Source: Curvibacter delicatus NBRC 14919
GTDB taxonomy: Bacteria; Pseudomonadota; Gammaproteobacteria; Burkholderiales; Burkholderiaceae_C
Assembly: GCF_001592265.1 (NCBI RefSeq)
Contig: NZ_BCWP01000008.1
Coordinates: 1-64,000 of the forward strand
Length of the DNA stretch: 64,000 bases
Reading direction: 5' to 3'
Part shown: positions 5,600 through 14,991 of the stretch, piece by piece
How positions within the stretch are numbered: the first letter of the stretch is position 1
Layout of the letters: each line of letters starts with the position of its first letter
The notes under the pieces: generated by a model
Told to the model about the DNA's origin: nothing
Databases searched by the model: none
The model's input: only the letters and a program-made list of their open reading frames with translations
Made by a program: the position numbers and the translations under genes

Positions 5600-6367
5600 T
5601 CAGCGCATCACCAGCCCGCCATCCACCATCAACACCTGCCCGGTCATGAAGCGGCTCCAGTCGGAAGCGAGGAACAGCACCGGCCCGGCCACGTCGGCCG
5701 GCGTGGCGATGCGACGCAGCGGCGTCTGCGCCACGATGGCCTCCTTCACGTCCTCCTTGGTCGCGCGGCTGGCGTCGGTCGGGTAGACCAGGCCGGGCGC
5801 CACGCAGTTGACGCGGATGCCCAGCGGCCCGAGTTCGGCCGCCAGGTTGCGGCTGAAGCCGACCAGCGCCGACTTGGCGGTGCTGTAGTCGTGGTACGGC
5901 ACCACCGGCCGCGCCACCAAGTCGCTCGCCAGGTTGACGATGCTGCCTTGCGCGCGCTGGCGCAAGTGCGGCAGCACGGCCTGGCAGACGTTGTAGGTGG
6001 CGTGCACGGCACCGTCCACCTGGCGTTGGTAGTCGCTCCAGTCCAGCTCCCAGAAGCGCTTGCGCTGCTCGGGGTCGAAGCGGTAGGGCGCAAAGGCGTT
6101 GTTCACCAGCACGTCGATGCGCCCCACTTCGGCCAGTACCTGGGCCACCATGGCCTGCACCTGCGCCGGATCATTGACATCGGCACGAATCGCCCAAGCG
6201 TCACCGCCGGCAGCCTTGCACTGCGCCACCACCGCTTCGGCCGCGGCCTCGTTGCGCAGGTAGTTGACGATCACGAAGCCGCCTTCGGCCGCAAACGCCT
6301 GCGCAATGGCCGCACCGATGCCGCGGCTGGCGCCGGTGACGAGGATGACCTGGCCCTGAAAATTCAT
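5600..6367 (-). CDS. Short-chain dehydrogenase/reductase (SDR), last gene of the TPP-riboswitch operon
   Basis: NAD(P)H-dependent oxidoreductase of 255 aa. Visible: Rossmann motif TGASRGIG (residues about 11-18), NNAF in place of the usual NNAG, active-site YSTAK, and the C-terminal VDGG. Automated naming would give 3-oxoacyl-ACP reductase, but context argues otherwise: it is three bases behind the ABC binding-protein gene and is the sixth gene of an operon headed by a thiamin-pyrophosphate riboswitch. I infer that it reduces the aldehyde released by the LuxC-like enzyme to an alcohol; the substrate is unknown. Confidence 0.88.
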   Translation of the reverse strand: MNFQGQVILVTGASRGIGAAIAQAFAAEGGFVIVNYLRNEAAAEAVVAQCKAAGGDAWAIRADVNDPAQVQAMVAQVLAEVGRIDVLVNNAFAPYRFDPEQRKRFWELDWSDYQRQVDGAVHATYNVCQAVLPHLRQRAQGSIVNLASDLVARPVVPYHDYSTAKSALVGFSRNLAAELGPLGIRVNCVAPGLVYPTDASRATKEDVKEAIVAQTPLRRIATPADVAGPVLFLASDWSRFMTGQVLMVDGGLVMR

Positions 6368-6370
6368 GGC

Positions 6371-7366
6371 TTACTTCCGGCCCGGCAGCAGGTCCTGGCT
6401 GACCACGGCCTTCATGTCCAGGTTGCGTTCGATCAGGCCGATCTGCTTCCAGGCGCGGGCGCCCTTCTGCAGTGTGTCCACGTCGATGGCGCCCAGGCCT
6501 TTTTGCTGCGTCAGCGGCGAAACGCTGGTGGCGTTGCGCAGCTTGATCACCTCCAGGTTCACAGCTTCGTTCTGGCCGTTGATGGCGCGCTTGACGGCGA
6601 GTTTGGCGGCCTCCTCGGGGTGGTCGATCATCCACTGCGCGCTGTCGCGGTAGGCAGCGAGGAAACGCTTGAGCAGGTCCTTCTTCTGCTGGAAAGTGTC
6701 CTCGCGCACGATGAAGAGATCGCTGGAAAGGTTGAGCGAGTGGCGCACCTCCATCACGTTCACGTCGCCCACGCCCTTGGCGCGCGCCACCAGCAGGCCG
6801 GTGTCGGTGGCGGCAGTGGCGTCCACCTGGCCCTGCATGAGCGGCGCGAAGTTCAGCAGACCGGTGACGACGATGGTCACGTCCTTGGTGCTCAGACCGG
6901 CCTGGTTGAGCAGCAGCTGCAGATTGGTCAGGGTGCCGCTGGAGAGGCTGTAGACGCCGATCTTCTTGCCCTTGAGGTCGGCCGGCTTGCTGATGTTGGC
7001 GCTCTTGAGCGAGACCACGTTGAAGACGTTCTGCGGGTAAATGTCGTAGATGGCGCGCAGCTTCTCGCCCTTGTCCAGCCCGCCGTAGAAGGAGCCGGGA
7101 TCGGTGAAGGCCACGTCGGCCTGGCCGCTGAGCAGGTTGCGCACCGCGTCGCCGCCGCCCGCGCCGGGCATGTAGACCAGCTCGATGCCGCGGGCGCGGA
7201 AGAAGCCCTTGTCGGGCTCGACCAGGATGTTGGTGATCTCGGAAATCGGACCGCCCCAGCCGGCGATGGTGACCTTCTCCAGTTTCGGGTCCTGGGCCAG
7301 GGCCGTGCCGGTGCCCAGGGTGGCCAGCGCGATGGCGGCCAGCATGCGCAGGGTGTTGCGTTTCAT
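6371..7366 (-). CDS. ABC transporter periplasmic substrate-binding protein, NMT1/ThiY-like
   Basis: 331 aa with a Sec signal peptide (about 1-24, MLAAIALATLGTGTALAQ). The mature protein has the periplasmic-binding fold of the NMT1/THI5-like and SsuA/TauA group (WGGPISEITNILVEPDKGF, GKKIGVYSLSSGT). Members of this group carry thiamin pyrimidine precursors (ThiY), nitrate, sulfonates or taurine. The upstream TPP riboswitch makes a thiamin-related ligand most likely. The permease and ATPase genes lie immediately upstream in the same operon. Ligand assignment is inference. Confidence 0.88.
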   Translation of the reverse strand: MKRNTLRMLAAIALATLGTGTALAQDPKLEKVTIAGWGGPISEITNILVEPDKGFFRARGIELVYMPGAGGGDAVRNLLSGQADVAFTDPGSFYGGLDKGEKLRAIYDIYPQNVFNVVSLKSANISKPADLKGKKIGVYSLSSGTLTNLQLLLNQAGLSTKDVTIVVTGLLNFAPLMQGQVDATAATDTGLLVARAKGVGDVNVMEVRHSLNLSSDLFIVREDTFQQKKDLLKRFLAAYRDSAQWMIDHPEEAAKLAVKRAINGQNEAVNLEVIKLRNATSVSPLTQQKGLGAIDVDTLQKGARAWKQIGLIERNLDMKAVVSQDLLPGRK

Positions 7367-7388
7367 ATCCTCGTGTCCTCTCTCGGGT

Positions 7389-8150
7389 TCAGTTTGACTT
7401 GGGGTTGGAATAGGGTCGGAGCAACCGGCGCTCCAGCAGCAGCGCGGCTTCGTACAGCAGCAGGCCGATGCCGGTGATGAGCACCAGCGCCGCGAACATC
7501 AGCGCCGTGTCCATGGACGCCTGCGAGGCGATGATGAGCGCCCCCAGGCCGCGGCTGGCACCGATGAACTCGCCCACCACGGCCCCCACCAGCGCCAGCA
7601 CCACGGCCACGCGCAGGCCGGCCAGGATGGTGGGCAAGGCGGCCGGAATCTTGAGGCGCCACAGGGTCCGCCAGCGGCTCGCGCCCAGCATGCGGAACAG
7701 CTCGAGCCGGGCCGCATCCACCTGCGCCACGGCGGTCAGTGTGTTCTCCAGCAGGGGGAAGAAGCAGATCAGCGCGGTGATGAGCACCGTGGGCGCGGTG
7801 CCGAAGCCCAGCCAGACGATGAACAGCGGCACCAGCGCCAGCTTCGGGATGACTTGGCTGGTCACCACATAGGGCATGAGCACGCGGCGCAGCGCGGCCG
7901 ATTCGCCCAGCAGCACGCCGCCGGCAAAACCCAACAGCACGCCCAGCCCCAGACCCAACGCCAGCTCCAGCAGGGTCTGCCCGATGTGCGGCCAGAAGTA
8001 GCCGGTGGCAAAGCCGCGCCACAGGGCTGCACCGATGGCACTGGGCGCAGGCAGCACGAGCGCGGAGAAGCGGAAGGCCGGCACGGCGGCTTCCCAGAGC
8101 GCGAGCAGGCCGAGCAGCAGTGCGAAAGCGAGAAGACGCGGGTATTTCAA
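7389..8150 (-). CDS. ABC transporter inner-membrane permease (ThiX/SsuC-like)
   Basis: 253 aa BPD-type permease with about six hydrophobic segments and the EAA-type cytoplasmic loop (MLGASRWRTLWRLKIPAALP, residues about 155-175) that contacts the ATPase. The start is TTG overlapping the stop of the ATPase gene (TTGA), so it is translationally coupled. Together with the flanking ATPase and binding protein it forms a complete importer. Belongs to the nitrate/sulfonate/taurine/thiamin-precursor type; the riboswitch points to the thiamin branch. Confidence 0.9.
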   Translation of the reverse strand: MKYPRLLAFALLLGLLALWEAAVPAFRFSALVLPAPSAIGAALWRGFATGYFWPHIGQTLLELALGLGLGVLLGFAGGVLLGESAALRRVLMPYVVTSQVIPKLALVPLFIVWLGFGTAPTVLITALICFFPLLENTLTAVAQVDAARLELFRMLGASRWRTLWRLKIPAALPTILAGLRVAVVLALVGAVVGEFIGASRGLGALIIASQASMDTALMFAALVLITGIGLLLYEAALLLERRLLRPYSNPKSN

Positions 8151-8896
8151 GCAGCCACCTCCGCGTCCATGGCCTGGCGCAGCTCGGCGCAGAGGGCATT
8201 GAAGGCAGCGCTGTAGCGCACGTCCTGGCTGCGCGAGCGCGGCAGTTCAACGCGGACATCGTGCCGGATGCGGCCGCCCTCCATCACCGCCACCCGGTCG
8301 GCCAGGTACACCGCCTCGGCGATGTCGTGCGTGACGAAAAAGACCGAGGTGCCGCGCGCGCGGCACATGGCCTGCAACTCGTCCTGCAGTTCCTCGCGCG
8401 TGATGGCGTCGAGCGCGGCAAAGGGCTCGTCCATCAACAAAATCGCCGGCTCCAGCACCAGCGCGCGCGCAATCGCCACCCGGCTTTGCTGGCCGCCCGA
8501 CAACTGGCGCGGGTAATGGTTGGCATGCGAGGCCAAGCCCATCTGCGTCAGCAGTTGCTCGGCGCGCGCCACGTCGGCCACGGTCGGTTTGCGCTGCAAG
8601 GTCACGGGCAGCAGTACGTTGTCCAGCACGGTGAGCCAGTCCAGCAGCGTGGGGGCCTGGAACACGAAACCGGTGCCCGGCCCGGGCTGGCGCACCGCCT
8701 GCCCCTGCAGGCTGACCCGGCCTTCGTCGGGCTGCAGCAGGCCGGCGGCGAGTTTGAGCAGCGTGGTCTTGCCGCAGCCGCTGCGCCCTACCAGGCAATG
8801 GAACTCGCCCTGCGCGATGTCCCAGTCCACGCGCTGCACCACCGGCGGCCAGCCGGGGTAGGTGTAGCTCACGCCTTGCATGTCGAGGAAGGCCAT
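8147..8896 (-). CDS. ABC transporter ATP-binding protein
   Basis: About 249 aa from the preferred ATG (MAFLDMQGVSYTY); a TTG three codons upstream overlaps the LuxC-like stop and is the alternative start. Walker A GRSGCGKTT, ABC signature LSGGQQSR, Walker B ILLMDEPFAALD and the H-loop VTHDIAEA are all intact. It energises the adjacent permease. The five-base gap to the reductase gene and the overlap with the permease gene place it in the middle of the six-gene operon. Confidence 0.92.
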   Translation of the reverse strand: MAFLDMQGVSYTYPGWPPVVQRVDWDIAQGEFHCLVGRSGCGKTTLLKLAAGLLQPDEGRVSLQGQAVRQPGPGTGFVFQAPTLLDWLTVLDNVLLPVTLQRKPTVADVARAEQLLTQMGLASHANHYPRQLSGGQQSRVAIARALVLEPAILLMDEPFAALDAITREELQDELQAMCRARGTSVFFVTHDIAEAVYLADRVAVMEGGRIRHDVRVELPRSRSQDVRYSAAFNALCAELRQAMDAEVAA

Positions 8897-8901
8897 CGTC
8901 C

Positions 8902-10359
8902 TCAATCCTTGTACGGCGCGAAATCTTCCGCCGCCGTTTCTGCCGACTGTTCCAGTTCGACCATGCGCACCAGATCCAGCAGGCTGAAGCGCCCGTCGTG
9001 GTGCCAGCCGGCCTCGGGCGCCGTCATGGCACCCAGGGCGCAGATGCGGGTGGCACCGGCCTGCCCCAGCGCTTCCGCCAGGGCGTACAACTCATGCGGC
9101 GCCGCGGCCAGCCCCACCGTCTGCAGAATGTCACGCTGCGCGGCAATCAAAGGCATGGCAGCGTCCAGCCGCGCCACCGCCTGCACCTGCACCGTGCGGT
9201 TCAGGGCACAGGGCTGCAGCGCACTCGCCACCTCCGCATAGGCCACGCACCACGGTACCGTGGCATCGCCCATTAGTTCCACACCGGTTTGCGCAAAGCC
9301 CTTGAGTTCCTGCCGCTCGCGCCAGCCGGCCACGCTGGTCGCTTCTTCCAATGTCAGCGTGCGGCGCGCGAACTTGTGCTGCAACGCGGCCAGTTCACCC
9401 GCCAGCAGTTGTGCAAACTCGCGCGGCGTGACACGGCCGCCACGCGCCACATAGAACACATGCGGCGAGTAGCAGCCCTGCTGCTCGTAGCGCACCACAT
9501 CGAGCGCCGCCTGGCGCGCTGCTGCCTGGGCATGCTGGGCGTCGAGCACCGCGCTGGAGACCAGGCCCAGGCTGAGCTTGTGGCCGTGCGGCAGGAAGCG
9601 CGTGCCCACCGGCACCTGCTGGCGCAAGGCAGCCAGCGTGTCGTTGCCGCCGTAGGCCAGCACCGTGTCGGCTTCGGCAAACAAGGTTTTTTCGCTCACC
9701 GTATCGCCGCCCTTGAACCAGAGCACGGCCAGACAATCGGCCAGGCGCGGTTCGACCTCGGCCAGCAGGCGTGCGAACAGCGCGGCGAACACCGGCTCGG
9801 CACTGGCCACCTTGCCGATGGCCGGCGCCTTGACCAGCAGGCCGCAGACCAGGCTCCACAGCGGCAGGCCCGGCACATTGCCGGCCCAGACGTGCATCAG
9901 CAGCTCGGGGCCGAGCGCGCGCGCCATGCCGCCTTTGACCACGGGCTGGAATTCGTCGAGCAGCTTGGGGTTGGCGAAGTCCTCGGCCACAAAGCGCTGC
10001 AGCTGCGGCGCGCGGAAGGTCTTGAGATAGGCGTTGAGCCCCAGGCGCACCATCTCGGCATCGAAGCCGCTCACCAGGGGCAGCAGCCGATCGGCCTCGA
10101 CGCGGTAGGGGTCGTTGGCATCCAGCAGGCGAGCCACGGCGCGGTCGATGGCGGCAATGATCTGCGACACCGGCACGCGCTTGAGCTGCTGGCGACCGGC
10201 CTCGCGCACGTGCGCGGCCAGGGCTGTCAGCTGCGCCGGCGTCAAATGCGGCACAGCGACTTCGACACCATCCGCGCCCACACCAAAGCGCAGCGTCTGC
10301 CACTGCACCTGTTCGGCTGGCAAGCCCGGCAGGTAAGCCGCGACGGCTTTCAGCGTCAT
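8902..10359 (-). CDS. LuxC-type acyl reductase (NADPH-dependent aldehyde-forming), TPP-riboswitch operon
   Basis: 485 aa, full length for the LuxC family, which takes an acyl group from LuxE or acyl-CoA and reduces it to an aldehyde with NADPH. The catalytic cysteine is visible as QQGCYSPH (Cys about 296), with the aldehyde-dehydrogenase-like core and a cofactor region around LAYGGND. The start overlaps the LuxE-like stop by four bases (ATGA), so the two should be made together, as in lux operons. No luciferase genes (luxA, luxB) are present, so luminescence is not indicated. With the riboswitch and a ThiY-like importer, I infer reduction of a carboxylated thiamin fragment. Confidence 0.88.
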   Translation of the reverse strand: MTLKAVAAYLPGLPAEQVQWQTLRFGVGADGVEVAVPHLTPAQLTALAAHVREAGRQQLKRVPVSQIIAAIDRAVARLLDANDPYRVEADRLLPLVSGFDAEMVRLGLNAYLKTFRAPQLQRFVAEDFANPKLLDEFQPVVKGGMARALGPELLMHVWAGNVPGLPLWSLVCGLLVKAPAIGKVASAEPVFAALFARLLAEVEPRLADCLAVLWFKGGDTVSEKTLFAEADTVLAYGGNDTLAALRQQVPVGTRFLPHGHKLSLGLVSSAVLDAQHAQAAARQAALDVVRYEQQGCYSPHVFYVARGGRVTPREFAQLLAGELAALQHKFARRTLTLEEATSVAGWRERQELKGFAQTGVELMGDATVPWCVAYAEVASALQPCALNRTVQVQAVARLDAAMPLIAAQRDILQTVGLAAAPHELYALAEALGQAGATRICALGAMTAPEAGWHHDGRFSLLDLVRMVELEQSAETAAEDFAPYKD

Positions 10360-11486
10360 GCCGCGGCTCCGCTCTGCGCCGCCCGCAGGAAGTCGTCCAC
10401 CGCAATCGAGCAGCCCTTGGCCTGCGCTCCTTGGGCACGGCCCAGCAGCAGGAAGCCGTCATCAACCGCCACACCGACGTCTTCGGTCAGGATGGTGGTG
10501 ACGGAATTGAAGTTGCCCAGGTCGCAATGCGCCAAAATGCCGCGCTCACCGAAGGGGGCTTCCTGACCACTCAGGGGGTCGAGCAGGCGCGAACGGATCC
10601 AGTGCGGGCCGGACTTGGGCGAAGGCAGCACGGCGTTGCCGTCGTCGTAGAACTGGGTGCTGAGCTCGGTCATGCCGTACATGTTGATGCACTGGCTGCG
10701 CGGGACGCCGAAGGTGGCCGAGAGCTGGACGTAGAACGCCTCCATGTCCATCTCGCGCGATTGGCCCTTGAAGCCGCCGGTGTCGAGCAGGCGGCTGCCC
10801 GCCGGCAACTGGAACTGCAAGCCAGCCGCCTGCAAGGCGTCCATCAGGTGCACGAAACTGTAGCTGGCACCCAGCAAGGCGAAGGGTTCGCCGCTGCGCT
10901 GCACCTGCCGCAACGTCTCGCACAGGTCTTCGAGCTGCAGGCCGTCCTGGTCCATGAAGTAACGACTCTCGGGCGTACCGAACGCGTGCAGCGCCAGCGC
11001 CAGGTAGTGCGCCAGCGAGGAGTTGGGCATGAGCTGCTCGTCCGGGAACAGGAGGCCCATGCGCATGCGTTCAGCGCCCGCCATGAAACGCTGGCGGAAG
11101 TTGCGTGTCATGGACAGGTCGTACACCTGCAGATGCGGGTGGTAGTGCCGGCCTTTCACGTCGCCGCGCGTGGTGCCACTGGTCATGAAGACGCGCTCGC
11201 AGGCATCTGGCGGCACGCAGCTGAGCGTGAGGTCCTTGAAGGCATTGATCGGCACGGCCGGAATGTCACGCCAGTTTTTCACGGTGCGCGGCGTGCGGCC
11301 GCGTTGCTGGCAGTAGCGCTGAAAAGGTGCGTTGTGCTGGAACTGGTGGGCGAACAGACGCAGGGCGAGTGCGTTGAAGGCATCGTCGGTCGAGCCGGGT
11401 TGCGCGATGAAGGCCAGCAGATCGGCCACCAGCGCGTCATCCAGACCGCTGGCCTTGGCTTGCATTGCTGTGGAGGTGTCGTTCAC
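10356..11486 (-). CDS. LuxE-type acyl-protein synthetase, first gene of the TPP-riboswitch operon
   Basis: 376 aa. LuxE enzymes activate a carboxylic acid with ATP as an acyl-adenylate and hold the acyl group on a C-terminal cysteine before passing it to LuxC. Seen here: phosphate-binding TSGTTRGD (about residues 112-119), the family motif INMYGMTELS, and a cysteine near the C terminus in KGCSIAVDDFL (about residue 359), the position expected for the acyl-accepting Cys. The start is GTG preceded by GAAGGG. It lies about 80 bases below the TPP riboswitch. Retention of the acceptor cysteine and of the LuxC partner argues for real carboxylate reduction. Confidence 0.88.
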   Translation of the reverse strand: MNDTSTAMQAKASGLDDALVADLLAFIAQPGSTDDAFNALALRLFAHQFQHNAPFQRYCQQRGRTPRTVKNWRDIPAVPINAFKDLTLSCVPPDACERVFMTSGTTRGDVKGRHYHPHLQVYDLSMTRNFRQRFMAGAERMRMGLLFPDEQLMPNSSLAHYLALALHAFGTPESRYFMDQDGLQLEDLCETLRQVQRSGEPFALLGASYSFVHLMDALQAAGLQFQLPAGSRLLDTGGFKGQSREMDMEAFYVQLSATFGVPRSQCINMYGMTELSTQFYDDGNAVLPSPKSGPHWIRSRLLDPLSGQEAPFGERGILAHCDLGNFNSVTTILTEDVGVAVDDGFLLLGRAQGAQAKGCSIAVDDFLRAAQSGAAA

Positions 11487-11563
11487 GTTCGCCCTTCTTC
11501 CGGTGATGTGCTTCGCACGGGTGCTCCGAAAGGGGTGGCAGGGCGGGACGCTTGTTCCTGACA

Positions 11564-11659
11564 GCTCTTCTTACGTCGGCATGATCCGAGTCAAGTTCGC
11601 GGGTTCGGTGTCACCATCTCAGCCACGCTGCCATTACCGGCAGGGTTGCACCCCGGAGC
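11564..11659 (-). promoter_or_regulatory. TPP riboswitch (THI element) controlling the LuxE-LuxC-ABC-SDR operon
   Basis: Read on the minus strand, the element has the conserved TPP aptamer blocks in order: GGGGTGC, a variable hairpin, GGCTGAGAT (pyrimidine-binding CUGAGA), ACCCGCGAAC, then CTTGAC, CGGATCATGCCG and CGTAAG (close to consensus CCUGAUC-GGAUAAUGCC-CGUAGG). P1 is closed by GCTC (plus-strand 11656-11659) pairing with GAGC (11564-11567), and P4/P5 by CGG/CCG. It ends about 80 bases before the GTG start. High TPP is expected to switch the operon off, directly tying these six genes to thiamin supply. Confidence 0.93.
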
Positions 11660-11666
11660 GATTGGA

Positions 11667-11672
11667 ATTCTA
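11667..11672 (-). promoter_or_regulatory. Possible -10 element of the TPP-riboswitch operon
   Basis: TAGAAT on the minus strand, about eight bases before the riboswitch P1 stem, would start the transcript right at the aptamer. No convincing -35 hexamer 17 bases upstream, so this is tentative. Confidence 0.35.
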
Positions 11673-11826
11673 CGCGGAGTGAGGCGGGATACGTCCGTTG
11701 CCCTTGGGCCATCGGCTCCATTCCTTCTAATTCTCTTCCGATGGTGACAGAATGCCCAAGTGGTTTAATTTGATAAAAAAGCTCTCGGCGCTGCACCTCG
11801 AATACCTCCCATTGAAGAAAAACAGA

Positions 11827-13935
11827 ATGAAACCCGACACCCCCCAGACAACTTCGACCAGGCCCACAACTGGTGCCGTAACGCGCAGTACGGGGTTGGA
11901 CCGACGCCAATTCGTCAAGTACTCTTTCGGTGTCGTGGCCGGGCTCTCCGGAACCACTTTCTCAACGGCCTATGGCGGCAGCAACCATCAGCTGCGCAGT
12001 TATCCGATCGATGGCAGGAAGGTCAAGAAAACGACCGAGCAGATGTTGGCCTTCGACTTTTCTGCGACGCCCATCGACAAACCCAAATCGAACAAGGGCC
12101 TGCATGCCACGGAGATGAGCCACGTTCAGGACTACGACAGGTACGGCTACGGAAAGTATCGGCTCGCCGGCGGTCTTCCTGTCGTGCCACGTTATGACTT
12201 GCTGGCCAACGCGGGCAACTACGCTGCGCCTGCCAAGCGCAAGCGGCTGGCGAATTTTTTTGCCATGACCGACATCCACATCACGGACAAGGAGGCGCCC
12301 AACCAGCTGATCTATATCCAGCAAGCTGATTCAGCCCACGGAGGCGAGATGACCTCGATCTACTCGCCCGTCATGATGTACACCACCCAACTGCTCGACG
12401 CCGCCATCCAGACCGCCAATGCGCTGCATGAGCGGAGCCCCTTCGACTTCGGTATCTCGCTGGGCGATGTATGCGACAGCAGCCGGTACAACGAATTGCG
12501 CTGGTACCTCGACGTGATCGACGGCAAGCCCATCAGGCCGAGTTCGGGCGCGCATCTGGGCGAGGACACGGTCGATTTCCAGCGGCCTTTCCAGGCGGCC
12601 GGGCTCAACAAATCCATCCCGTGGTACCAGACGCTGGGCAATCACGATCACTTCTACATCGGCTCTGCGCCGGTAGATGCAAACCCTGCCCTCAAGATCC
12701 GCGAGAGCTACGTCAGCGATCAGGTCTGGGCGGTTGGCGATGTGCTCATCCCCAACGCGTCCAAGTCCACGCCCATGGCATTGCCGCCGGTGGTGTATGA
12801 CTTGAACACCAGCTTGTCGGGAACCTCGAAAGCAACCCTGAATGACCCGGTCACCGGCATCGCGGGCAACACCTTCTACATGGGTGTGATCGATGGTGCC
12901 AGTCCCTATGGTGCCATCCGCTACACGGGCAAGGCGGAAGACTTCAAATCGCCCCCCAAAGTGGCGGCCGACCCCGACCGGCGCGCCTTGCTGCGCAGCG
13001 AATGGATAGCGGAATTCTTCAACACCACGACCCTTCCCAAGGGCCATGGCTTTGACCTGGTGCCGGAGGCCTTGCGCCGCAGTCAGAACGGGTTCGCCTG
13101 CTACAGCTTCGTTCCCAAGTCGGACATTCCGCTCAAGATCATCGTGCTGGACAACACCCAGCTGGAAACGGATGGCTCCCACGACATTCACGGGCACGGT
13201 TTCCTGGACGAGGTGCGCTGGAAGTGGCTGCAGGCTGAGCTCGACGCCGGGCAGGCCAACAATCAGCTGATGGTGATTGCCGCGCACATACCGATTGCCG
13301 TGGCAGCCAGTGGCAGCCTGATGGAGTGGTGGAACCCCAAAGGACAGGCATCGCCATCCCAGAATGATCCCCATGCGGTCATGGACAACGCAGTCAAGTT
13401 GCCCGACCTGATCCGCAAACTGCAGGACACGCCCAACCTGCTGATGTGGATGTCTGGCCACCGGCACTTGAACACGGTCAAGGCGCTGCCCGCTTACAGC
13501 GATGAAGCCCGCACCCAGCTCGTGCCTGAGAAGAGTTTCTGGCAGGTTGAGACCTCCTCCCTGCAGCATTTTCCACAGCAGTTTCGTACCTTCGAGATCT
13601 ATCTGAACAGCGACTACACGGTGTCCATCGTGGCGGTCAATGTGGACCCGGAAGTGGCCGAAGGCACGCCAGCCGCGACATCGCGGAAGTACGCGATTGC
13701 CGAGCATCAGATTGCCCGGAACAACCTGCGACAGAACGAGCCCAACCGTGTGTATTTCCCCGGTAGCCGTCTCAAAGTCGACAGCATGGACCCCACACGC
13801 CAGCAGGACGACTCCATCGATCCGAGCATCCACTACGGCAACGTGGATGGCGTGCCGTACTGCGCCTCCTACAACGCGGAACTGTTCAAGCAGCTGACCC
13901 CGACGATGATCGAGGTTCTGAAGAAAATCGCTTGA
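11827..13935 (+). CDS. Tat-exported metallophosphoesterase
   Basis: About 702 aa from the ATG before KPDTPQTT; an in-frame ATG 75 bases upstream (11752) would add 25 residues. A twin-arginine leader is visible (LDRRQFVKYSFGVVAGLSG). Calcineurin-like metal-binding motifs appear in order: TDIHIT, SLGDVCD, LGNHDHF, AAHIPI and MSGHRHL, so the dinuclear metal site should be complete. It resembles the large metallophosphoesterase family with long insertions between motifs; the natural substrate is not known. Monocistronic and divergent from the TPP operon. Confidence 0.88.
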   Translation: MKPDTPQTTSTRPTTGAVTRSTGLDRRQFVKYSFGVVAGLSGTTFSTAYGGSNHQLRSYPIDGRKVKKTTEQMLAFDFSATPIDKPKSNKGLHATEMSHVQDYDRYGYGKYRLAGGLPVVPRYDLLANAGNYAAPAKRKRLANFFAMTDIHITDKEAPNQLIYIQQADSAHGGEMTSIYSPVMMYTTQLLDAAIQTANALHERSPFDFGISLGDVCDSSRYNELRWYLDVIDGKPIRPSSGAHLGEDTVDFQRPFQAAGLNKSIPWYQTLGNHDHFYIGSAPVDANPALKIRESYVSDQVWAVGDVLIPNASKSTPMALPPVVYDLNTSLSGTSKATLNDPVTGIAGNTFYMGVIDGASPYGAIRYTGKAEDFKSPPKVAADPDRRALLRSEWIAEFFNTTTLPKGHGFDLVPEALRRSQNGFACYSFVPKSDIPLKIIVLDNTQLETDGSHDIHGHGFLDEVRWKWLQAELDAGQANNQLMVIAAHIPIAVAASGSLMEWWNPKGQASPSQNDPHAVMDNAVKLPDLIRKLQDTPNLLMWMSGHRHLNTVKALPAYSDEARTQLVPEKSFWQVETSSLQHFPQQFRTFEIYLNSDYTVSIVAVNVDPEVAEGTPAATSRKYAIAEHQIARNNLRQNEPNRVYFPGSRLKVDSMDPTRQQDDSIDPSIHYGNVDGVPYCASYNAELFKQLTPTMIEVLKKIA

Positions 13936-14077: not shown

Positions 14078-14166
14078 GTTTCATCCCAAGGAATTTGCCC
14101 TGCGCAAAATAAGCTGGGAAGATGAACGCAGTTTCGGGACGTTGGTCCTGTTCTCGAAGGAAATCC

Positions 14167-14991
14167 ATGCATTTGAGACTCAAAAATGCTGCTCGGGTGT
14201 GGCTCACATCACTGGGTGCCTGCGTCGTCATGATTGGGACGGCCACGGCGACGGAAATCAAGATCGGCGGCACCGGCAATGCGCTGGGCACCATGCAACT
14301 GCTGGGCGACGCCTACAGCCGGAAATACCCGGACGTGAAAGTCACCGTCTTGCGCAGCCTTGGCAGCAGCGGCGCGCTGCTGGGCGTGCCCCAGCGGGCC
14401 ATCGACATCGGCCTGAGTTCCCGCACGCTGACCGAGGAAGAGCGCAGCAAAGGCCTCGTCGCCACCGAGTACGCGCGCACGCCAACCGTACTGGCGGTCT
14501 CCCCAAAAACCAAGGTCACCGGTCTCACCCGTGAGCAGTTGGCCGACATCTACACCGGTAAGCTGGCCCAATGGCCGGACCGCATCACGATTCGCCCGGT
14601 TCTGCGGCAACCGGGCGACGACAACACACGTCAGCTCAGAGCCCTGTCACCGGCCATCGAGCAGGCCCTCACTGTTGCCGAAAAGCGACCGGGCCTGCCC
14701 TATGCCATGACGGACCAGGAAGCAGCCGACAAGATCGAAAGCGTGCCCGGCGCCATCGGCGTCTCCACCCTGGCATTGATCCTGTCCGAGGGGCGTCAGA
14801 TGCGCAGCCTGTCCCTGGATGGCGTGGAGCCGACGGTGCACAACGGCGCCAGTGGCCGCTACCCCATGGCCAAGCATTTCTTTTTCATCACGCAGTCGAC
14901 GCCGTCGCCGGCGGTCCAGCAGTTCATCTCGTTCGTCCGATCACCCGCCGGCCGGGACATCCTGACGCAAACAGGCCACTGGCTGCCCTGA
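14167..14991 (+). CDS. Periplasmic substrate-binding protein, PstS-like
   Basis: 274 aa from the ATG of MHLRLKNAARVW, preferred over an upstream ATG (14122) because AGGAA precedes it. A Sec signal peptide spans about 1-26 (ending TATATEIK). The rest has the phosphate-type PBP fold (GGTGNALGTMQLLGDAY, LGSSGALLGVP, SSRTLTEEE). No permease or ATPase follows; instead the next gene, 10 bases on, is a membrane GGDEF/EAL protein, so this may be a sensory ligand-binding subunit rather than a transporter part. Ligand unknown (phosphate or another oxyanion are candidates). Confidence 0.82.
   Translation: MHLRLKNAARVWLTSLGACVVMIGTATATEIKIGGTGNALGTMQLLGDAYSRKYPDVKVTVLRSLGSSGALLGVPQRAIDIGLSSRTLTEEERSKGLVATEYARTPTVLAVSPKTKVTGLTREQLADIYTGKLAQWPDRITIRPVLRQPGDDNTRQLRALSPAIEQALTVAEKRPGLPYAMTDQEAADKIESVPGAIGVSTLALILSEGRQMRSLSLDGVEPTVHNGASGRYPMAKHFFFITQSTPSPAVQQFISFVRSPAGRDILTQTGHWLP

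Follow-up and report, generated by a model that had tools for sequence, protein, structure and literature searches.

Why should a thiamin pyrophosphate (TPP) riboswitch control relatives of bioluminescence enzymes? The question is raised by a locus of Curvibacter delicatus NBRC 14919 in the first 64,000 nucleotides of contig NZ_BCWP01000008.1 (the window, meaning the whole stretch analysed). There, a TPP aptamer on the minus strand is followed by six genes encoding, in order, a LuxE-like ligase, a LuxC-like reductase, the ATPase, permease and substrate-binding protein (SBP) of an ATP-binding cassette (ABC) importer, and a short-chain dehydrogenase/reductase (SDR) (Table 1). The operon, found in many Burkholderiales, seems to be a salvage route for the oxidised pyrimidine of thiamin (vitamin B1) that runs through these enzymes.

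An initial annotation had read this architecture from the letters of the sequence, and model-based searches agree with it. A cmscan search against all of Rfam returned the TPP aptamer as the sole match at gathering score across the window, a full-length one covering model positions 1–105. The importer and the SDR are confirmed by their Pfam families, and the PF04443 and PF05893 scores of LuxE and LuxC both exceed the Pfam gathering cut-offs. The luxE and luxC genes overlap by 4 nt; two more gene pairs overlap only if the most upstream TTG starts are real. By eye, the SBP N-terminus resembles a signal peptide. No thi gene adjoins the operon within the window. The C. delicatus genome (3.76 Mb, 108 contigs) holds two further TPP matches, before thiC and before a thiO–thiG cluster, one of which scores 53.4 bits, just below gathering. 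In the leader, taken as a single sequence, the minimum-free-energy fold (z 0.84) and a terminator scan were both no better than chance, and we therefore claim no switching mechanism for it.

Table 1. The riboswitch and the six genes behind it, with positions in the window.
Feature	Position	Strand	Evidence
TPP riboswitch aptamer, operon leader	11665-11551	minus	RF00059; cmscan 57.4 bits, gathering 54.3
luxE-like acyl-AMP ligase / acyl carrier, 376 aa, predicted acceptor Cys359	10356-11486	minus	PF04443, 80.2 bits
luxC-like acyl-thioester reductase, 485 aa, predicted catalytic Cys296	8902-10359	minus	PF05893, 286.6 bits
ABC transporter ATPase	8147-8905	minus	PF00005
ABC transporter permease	7389-8150	minus	PF00528
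NMT1/THI5-like SBP, ThiY/THI5 type	6371-7366	minus	PF09084, 166.6 bits, 1e-48
SDR, predicted aldehyde reductase	5600-6367	minus	PF13561

The arrangement is not a product of chance, because it recurs. Among 102 distinct loci, 16 are too short for the cassette to be judged; of the other 86, which have 6.6 kb or more of downstream sequence, 85 show all six genes in the same order, the exception (L126) lacking the ATPase gene at that place. The riboswitch recurs as well. In a genus sample of 26 genomes, whose named relatives are filed as Curvibacter and Hylemonella, LuxE is present in 20, and a TPP match precedes it in every one. In 19 of these the distance to the luxE hidden Markov model (HMM) hit is no more than 200 nt; the twentieth carrier (G005) has only a partial luxE hit, and its TPP match (34.3 bits) is truncated where the contig ends. 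A family sample covered 397 genomes of at least 90% completeness from 126 genera; a LuxE profile (A1) matched 39 of them, in 18 genera, at E ≤ 4.2e-169 and gave no other match up to 1e-20. Upstream TPP matches were found in 33 of the 34 family carriers outside the genus, 30 within 200 nt and three at 0.9–1.0 kb with thiD in between; in the one without (G404), luxE starts 245 nt from the contig end. The co-occurrence of TPP riboswitch and lux genes, a check proposed with the initial annotation, thus holds in 53 of 54 carrier genomes. In an order-level sample, LuxE was found in 9 of 399 genomes, from three families. Thirteen further carrier loci were chosen: the TPP match exceeds gathering in seven, falls just under it in L101 and L203 (53.4 and 52.0 bits), is not over it in L205–L207, whose genomes gave 48.6, 50.7 and 54.1 bits in the family-sample scan, and is missing in L159. 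In contrast to the operon gene, two other LuxE-family genes of one genome (G018) have no TPP match nearby, and no cassette genes surround one of them (L080).

Some single loci show further arrangements. Upstream of luxE in L077 (G008:C36), two TPP matches (1328-1437, 53.6 bits; 2822-2931, 54.1 bits) lie about 1.4 kb apart, with a short open reading frame (ORF) between them that resembles, by eye, a HepT/DUF86 protein. In G044, divergent TPP matches at C2:393749-393859 (minus) and 393950-394068 (plus) are separated by about 90 nt. In Variovorax sp. WS11 (L133), the cassette and a 56.1-bit riboswitch are on a record titled plasmid pVarWS11_2. Finally, a record filed under a Bacillota species, Geobacillus thermodenitrificans DSM 465 (L147, NZ_AYKT01000016.1), contains the complete cassette and a TPP riboswitch of 63.6 bits on a stretch of 50% GC, which reflects either transfer or contamination.

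The neighbours of the cassette point to thiamin. Downstream and on the same strand, thiG is found in 18 of the 102 distinct loci, and the series thiO-thiS-thiG-thiE follows the cassette in three Limnohabitans strains (L096, L100 and L108) and in MOLA814 (L118). Directly before luxE, thiD is found in nine of the 102, and in all four of these with the riboswitch position in hand (L124, L173, L174 and L176) the riboswitch precedes thiD. Six loci of this thiD–luxE type also have a ThiE-like match after the SDR gene (35–38% identity, tblastn only). One thiG and one thiD locus were checked by HMM, the others by tblastn. ThiD of L174 passes the equivalog for 4-amino-5-hydroxymethyl-2-methylpyrimidine (HMP) phosphate kinase (308.7 versus 204.95 bits); in L171, ThiG, ThiS and the ThiE domain score above the Pfam cut-offs and ThiO lies just under its NCBIfam cut-off (247.9 versus 250.8 bits). 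The riboswitch match, the conserved cassette and its linkage to thiD, thiOSGE and thiE-like genes are all computed directly, and a role of the cassette in thiamin metabolism is well supported.

In many thiG-linked loci, thiD lies in between on the opposite strand. It sits between the riboswitch (or the SDR gene) and thiO in L181, L161, L163, L164, L177–L179 and L188, and a thi transcript would thus run antisense through it. In L181, from the C. delicatus genome (C23, 6771-8947), thiD and thiO are named by eye; no thiO was seen within the stretch of L163.

Which half of thiamin is at stake emerges from the distribution of ThiC and ThiG. In the family sample, ThiC is present in 272 and ThiG in 287 of the 397 genomes. 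ThiG is found in all 39 carriers and in 248 of 358 non-carriers (p = 2e-6), whereas ThiC is absent from 10 of the 39 carriers; these ten cases fall in seven genera and in assemblies that are 94–100% complete. When only ThiG-positive genomes are compared, 10 of 39 carriers and 11 of 248 non-carriers are without ThiC (p = 8e-5); of the ThiC-negative genomes, 10 of 10 carriers and 11 of 115 non-carriers have ThiG (p = 2e-9). The initial annotation had suggested looking for missing thiC, thiG or tenA: loss of thiC is thus associated with the operon, on condition that ThiG is present, and loss of thiG is not. That the operon occurs in thiC-less genomes but is missing from all 110 ThiG-negative genomes of the family sample is likewise a direct computation. 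In this sample, therefore, the operon lives where the thiazole is made and can occur where the pyrimidine is not, and its assignment to the pyrimidine (HMP) branch is well supported.

A second set of 38 picked carriers, overlapping in part with the family-sample strains, comprised 33 genomes, mostly isolates, drawn from the best 80 of 337 relatives, and five from the order sample. Twelve have no ThiC, including Limnohabitans Jir72, B9-3 and JirII-31, MOLA814, Ramlibacter montanisoli, R. monticola, R. alkalitolerans and Variovorax dokdonensis; ThiC was counted as present in 26, in one of them (G833) in three pieces.

ThiC-negative, ThiG-positive genomes that do not carry the operon (n = 11) provide a natural control. 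The gene headed by a TPP match was inspected in ten; G400 was left out, and one of two TPP matches of G401 and two of three of G272 were inspected. The riboswitch heads a CytX-like gene in six of the 11 (best NCBIfam match thia_cytX, 210–244 bits, under the cut-off of 309.85), an SSF symporter in one (read as ThiV-like, on PF00474 alone), a ThiB-like gene in one and thiO in two. An HMP-transporter-like gene therefore stands behind the riboswitch in seven of 11, and it is this place that the LuxE operon occupies in carriers. In six of the 10 ThiC-negative carriers (G122, G141, G224, G260, G318 and G407), every TPP match found lies at the operon, in a strict-filter scan that can lose weak matches. 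A second TPP match in G272 (L195, 5456-7546) precedes a 697-aa ORF with a start resembling, by eye, a TonB-dependent receptor.

What the importer would carry is suggested by its SBP. The AlphaFold model of this protein (predicted local distance difference test score, pLDDT, 91.2) has as its best structural match in the PDB ThiY with N-formyl-4-amino-5-aminomethyl-2-methylpyrimidine (FAMP) (3ix1; Z 33.9, root mean square deviation 2.2 over 293 residues), followed by a thiamin-bound SBP (4nmy; Z 31.7) and by Thi5 and sulfonate-binding proteins (Z 28–29); Foldseek ranks 4nmy first and 3ix1 second. The protein combines an NMT1/THI5 domain with a ThiY-like fold, from which we infer a ThiY/THI5-type SBP and a candidate pyrimidine binder. 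In two genomes (G004 and G005), a gene for a TctC-type binding protein lies between those for the SBP and the SDR (L076, 8506-9603; L079, 5370-6473), confirmed by HMM in the former (PF03401). Members of this tripartite tricarboxylate family often bind carboxylates.

In the two Lux-family enzymes, the cysteines that the initial annotation had singled out, C359 of LuxE and C296 of LuxC, are each invariant in 38 of 38 aligned sequences (the window and a selection of varied relatives, some listed picks having been dropped), and C296 aligns with the cysteine of YDQQaCfs in LuxC of 7xc6. LuxE enzymes activate an acid by adenylation and then bear it as a cysteine thioester, which LuxC enzymes reduce to the aldehyde at the expense of NADPH; SDRs take aldehydes to alcohols. 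The nearest solved relatives by sequence, and the only ones, are the long-chain LuxE and LuxC of 7xc6. By contrast, the LuxE AlphaFold model (pLDDT 88.6) finds PaaK-type aryl-acid ligases as its top PDB fold matches; as LuxE of 7xc6 is not among the 50 fold matches listed, although closest by sequence, this ranking speaks only weakly for an aryl acid.

Together, these observations make it probable that the locus is a TPP-controlled salvage operon for the thiamin pyrimidine, in which a carboxylate is imported and then reduced to HMP. With HMP as the product, the fitting acid would be 4-amino-2-methylpyrimidine-5-carboxylate, a thiamin metabolite in animals. Judging from the fold of its SBP, the ThiY-type importer would take up an oxidised pyrimidine, most simply this acid. 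As their families predict, LuxE would adenylate the carboxylate and hold it as a thioester on Cys359, and LuxC would accept the acyl group on Cys296 and, using NADPH, reduce it to the 5-aldehyde; the pair would thus act as a split carboxylic acid reductase. The SDR would then reduce the aldehyde to HMP. In the known pathway, ThiD would phosphorylate the HMP and ThiE would couple it with the thiazole that ThiG supplies. The initial annotation had proposed the import and reduction of a carboxylated thiamin fragment, derived from either the pyrimidine or the thiazole; the general proposal fits the comparative tests, which favour the pyrimidine carboxylate and disfavour the thiazole acid.

The operon might instead salvage another pyrimidine, namely HMP, FAMP, 4-amino-5-aminomethyl-2-methylpyrimidine (AmMP) or a derivative with its acid group at another position, on a side chain or in a conjugate, processed by LuxE, LuxC and the SDR. 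The structural matches of the SBP to ThiY with FAMP and to the thiamin-binding SBP would suit this, and the pyrimidine branch is supported whichever acid is meant. However, plain HMP import needs none of the three enzymes, yet all six genes stay together, and FAMP and AmMP require TenA-type hydrolysis. TenA is present in 10 of the 39 carriers, in one of the 10 that are ThiC-negative and in four of the 11 ThiC-negative, ThiG-positive non-carriers; the C. delicatus genome has no match to it (PF03070). TenA-based salvage of FAMP or AmMP is therefore unlikely in ThiC-negative carriers, nine of 10 of which do not have the enzyme, and we consider salvage of another pyrimidine unlikely overall. A repair of the thiazole or of whole thiamin, reducing 4-methylthiazole-5-acetic acid or thiamin acetic acid to the alcohol, would suit the chemistry of LuxE, LuxC and the SDR just as well, and the 29 of 39 carriers that have ThiC need no pyrimidine from outside. 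Against it, ThiG is the enzyme that every carrier keeps and ThiC the step that can be missing, which set back the thiazole alternative of the initial annotation; moreover, the operon is absent from all 104 genomes of the sample in which both ThiC and ThiG are missing, and whole-thiamin repair would make ThiG and ThiE dispensable, yet thiOSGE or thiE-like genes are frequent downstream of the cassette. We regard this repair as very improbable. That LuxE and LuxC act on fatty acids, with TPP control reflecting something else and the importer and Lux pair sharing regulation only, is scarcely credible: the only solved relatives are long-chain enzymes and the SDR is named a 3-oxoacyl-acyl carrier protein reductase, but neither Lux protein reaches the long-chain NCBIfam equivalog cut-offs or comes near them (LuxC 87.6 versus 750 bits, LuxE 74.6 versus 550 bits), no luciferase or acyl transferase gene is among the six, and the neighbours are thiD, thiOSGE and thiE-like genes.

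Several points weigh against salvage of a pyrimidine carboxylate. Just over half of the upstream TPP matches (27 of 53) score under the Rfam gathering threshold, at 47–54 bits apart from that of G005; it is exceeded in 26, comprising 11 of 20 in the genus and 15 of 33 outside it. One distant carrier locus (L159) has no TPP match up to E 0.1. There is no raw association with loss of ThiC in the family sample (10 of 39 carriers versus 115 of 358 others, p = 0.47), because most ThiC-less genomes (104 of 125) also lack ThiG. In the genus, carriers make up nine of 10 ThiC-negative and 11 of 16 ThiC-positive genomes (p = 0.35). All p values come from Fisher tests, which ignore relatedness, and ThiC-negative calls may be gaps in draft assemblies. 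Since most carriers have ThiC, the operon would be a supplement in most of them, including C. delicatus. The survey of carriers for HMP transporters was confined to riboswitch-controlled sites. Lux families are known chiefly for work on fatty acids, the PaaK-like fold matches of LuxE may merely reflect the superfamily, and the SDR passes the NCBIfam model behind its name, NF006393 (303.7 bits, cut-off 292). Finally, the pyrimidine carboxylate is not among the vitamers for which the text consulted of PMC10881298 gives assays, namely HMP, AmMP, FAMP, 5-(2-hydroxyethyl)-4-methylthiazole (HET) and its 2-carboxylate (cHET).

Many aquatic bacteria without thiC are called HMP auxotrophs. Passages of PMC12637900 report that nearly all Limnohabitans reference genomes in the data of that study are without thiC and have thiV, thiY and/or cytX. 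If the proposed salvage is true, some thiC-less bacteria live on an oxidised pyrimidine outside the assay as described in that text of PMC10881298, and LuxC and LuxE gain a role in vitamin metabolism. This suggests that the gene lists used for calling B1 auxotrophy would miss a route. It is an even question whether the carboxylate is an unrecognised B1 vitamer, plentiful enough in nature for many Burkholderiales to maintain a dedicated importer and split reductase, and one on which thiC-less groups such as Limnohabitans depend for their pyrimidine. In the literature searched (titles and the starts of abstracts, with few subscription papers), we found no description of a TPP/LuxE/LuxC salvage operon, and the main text of the TPP-regulon survey PMC3766115 contains no word starting 'lux'. 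As a separate observation, 104 of the 397 family genomes have neither ThiC nor ThiG, so that full thiamin auxotrophy looks common in the family.

Divergent from the operon in the window, a plus-strand gene (11752-13935) encodes a 727-aa protein scoring just under the PF00149 metallophosphoesterase cut-off (21.2 versus 21.5 bits). It is followed by a gene for a PBP_like_2 binding protein (14122-14991).

Among known systems, genes resembling those of the HMP transporters CytX and ThiV share the regulatory place of the operon, behind a TPP riboswitch; unlike it, CytX and ThiV are single-gene permeases without reductases. The ThiXYZ importer is also under TPP control, and its ThiY is likewise an NMT1/THI5-type SBP and the top structural match of the operon SBP, albeit at only about 17% identity. 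However, in the operon the importer is accompanied by LuxE, LuxC and the SDR, and the salvage of base-degraded thiamin through ThiY uses TenA, which only a minority of carrier genomes have. An SDR under TPP control has a reported precedent in oarX, which Rodionov is said to have placed in THI-element regulons in 2002 and which is not known to be linked to luxC or luxE. Finally, the operon pair and the LuxC–LuxE of luminous bacteria (7xc6) belong to the same Pfam families, and both reactive cysteines are conserved among the operon relatives, that of LuxC also aligning with 7xc6. Unlike the bioluminescence enzymes, the operon pair scores far below the long-chain equivalog cut-offs, its LuxE has PaaK-type ligases at the top of its fold list, and it comes with a TPP riboswitch and thiamin-gene neighbours.

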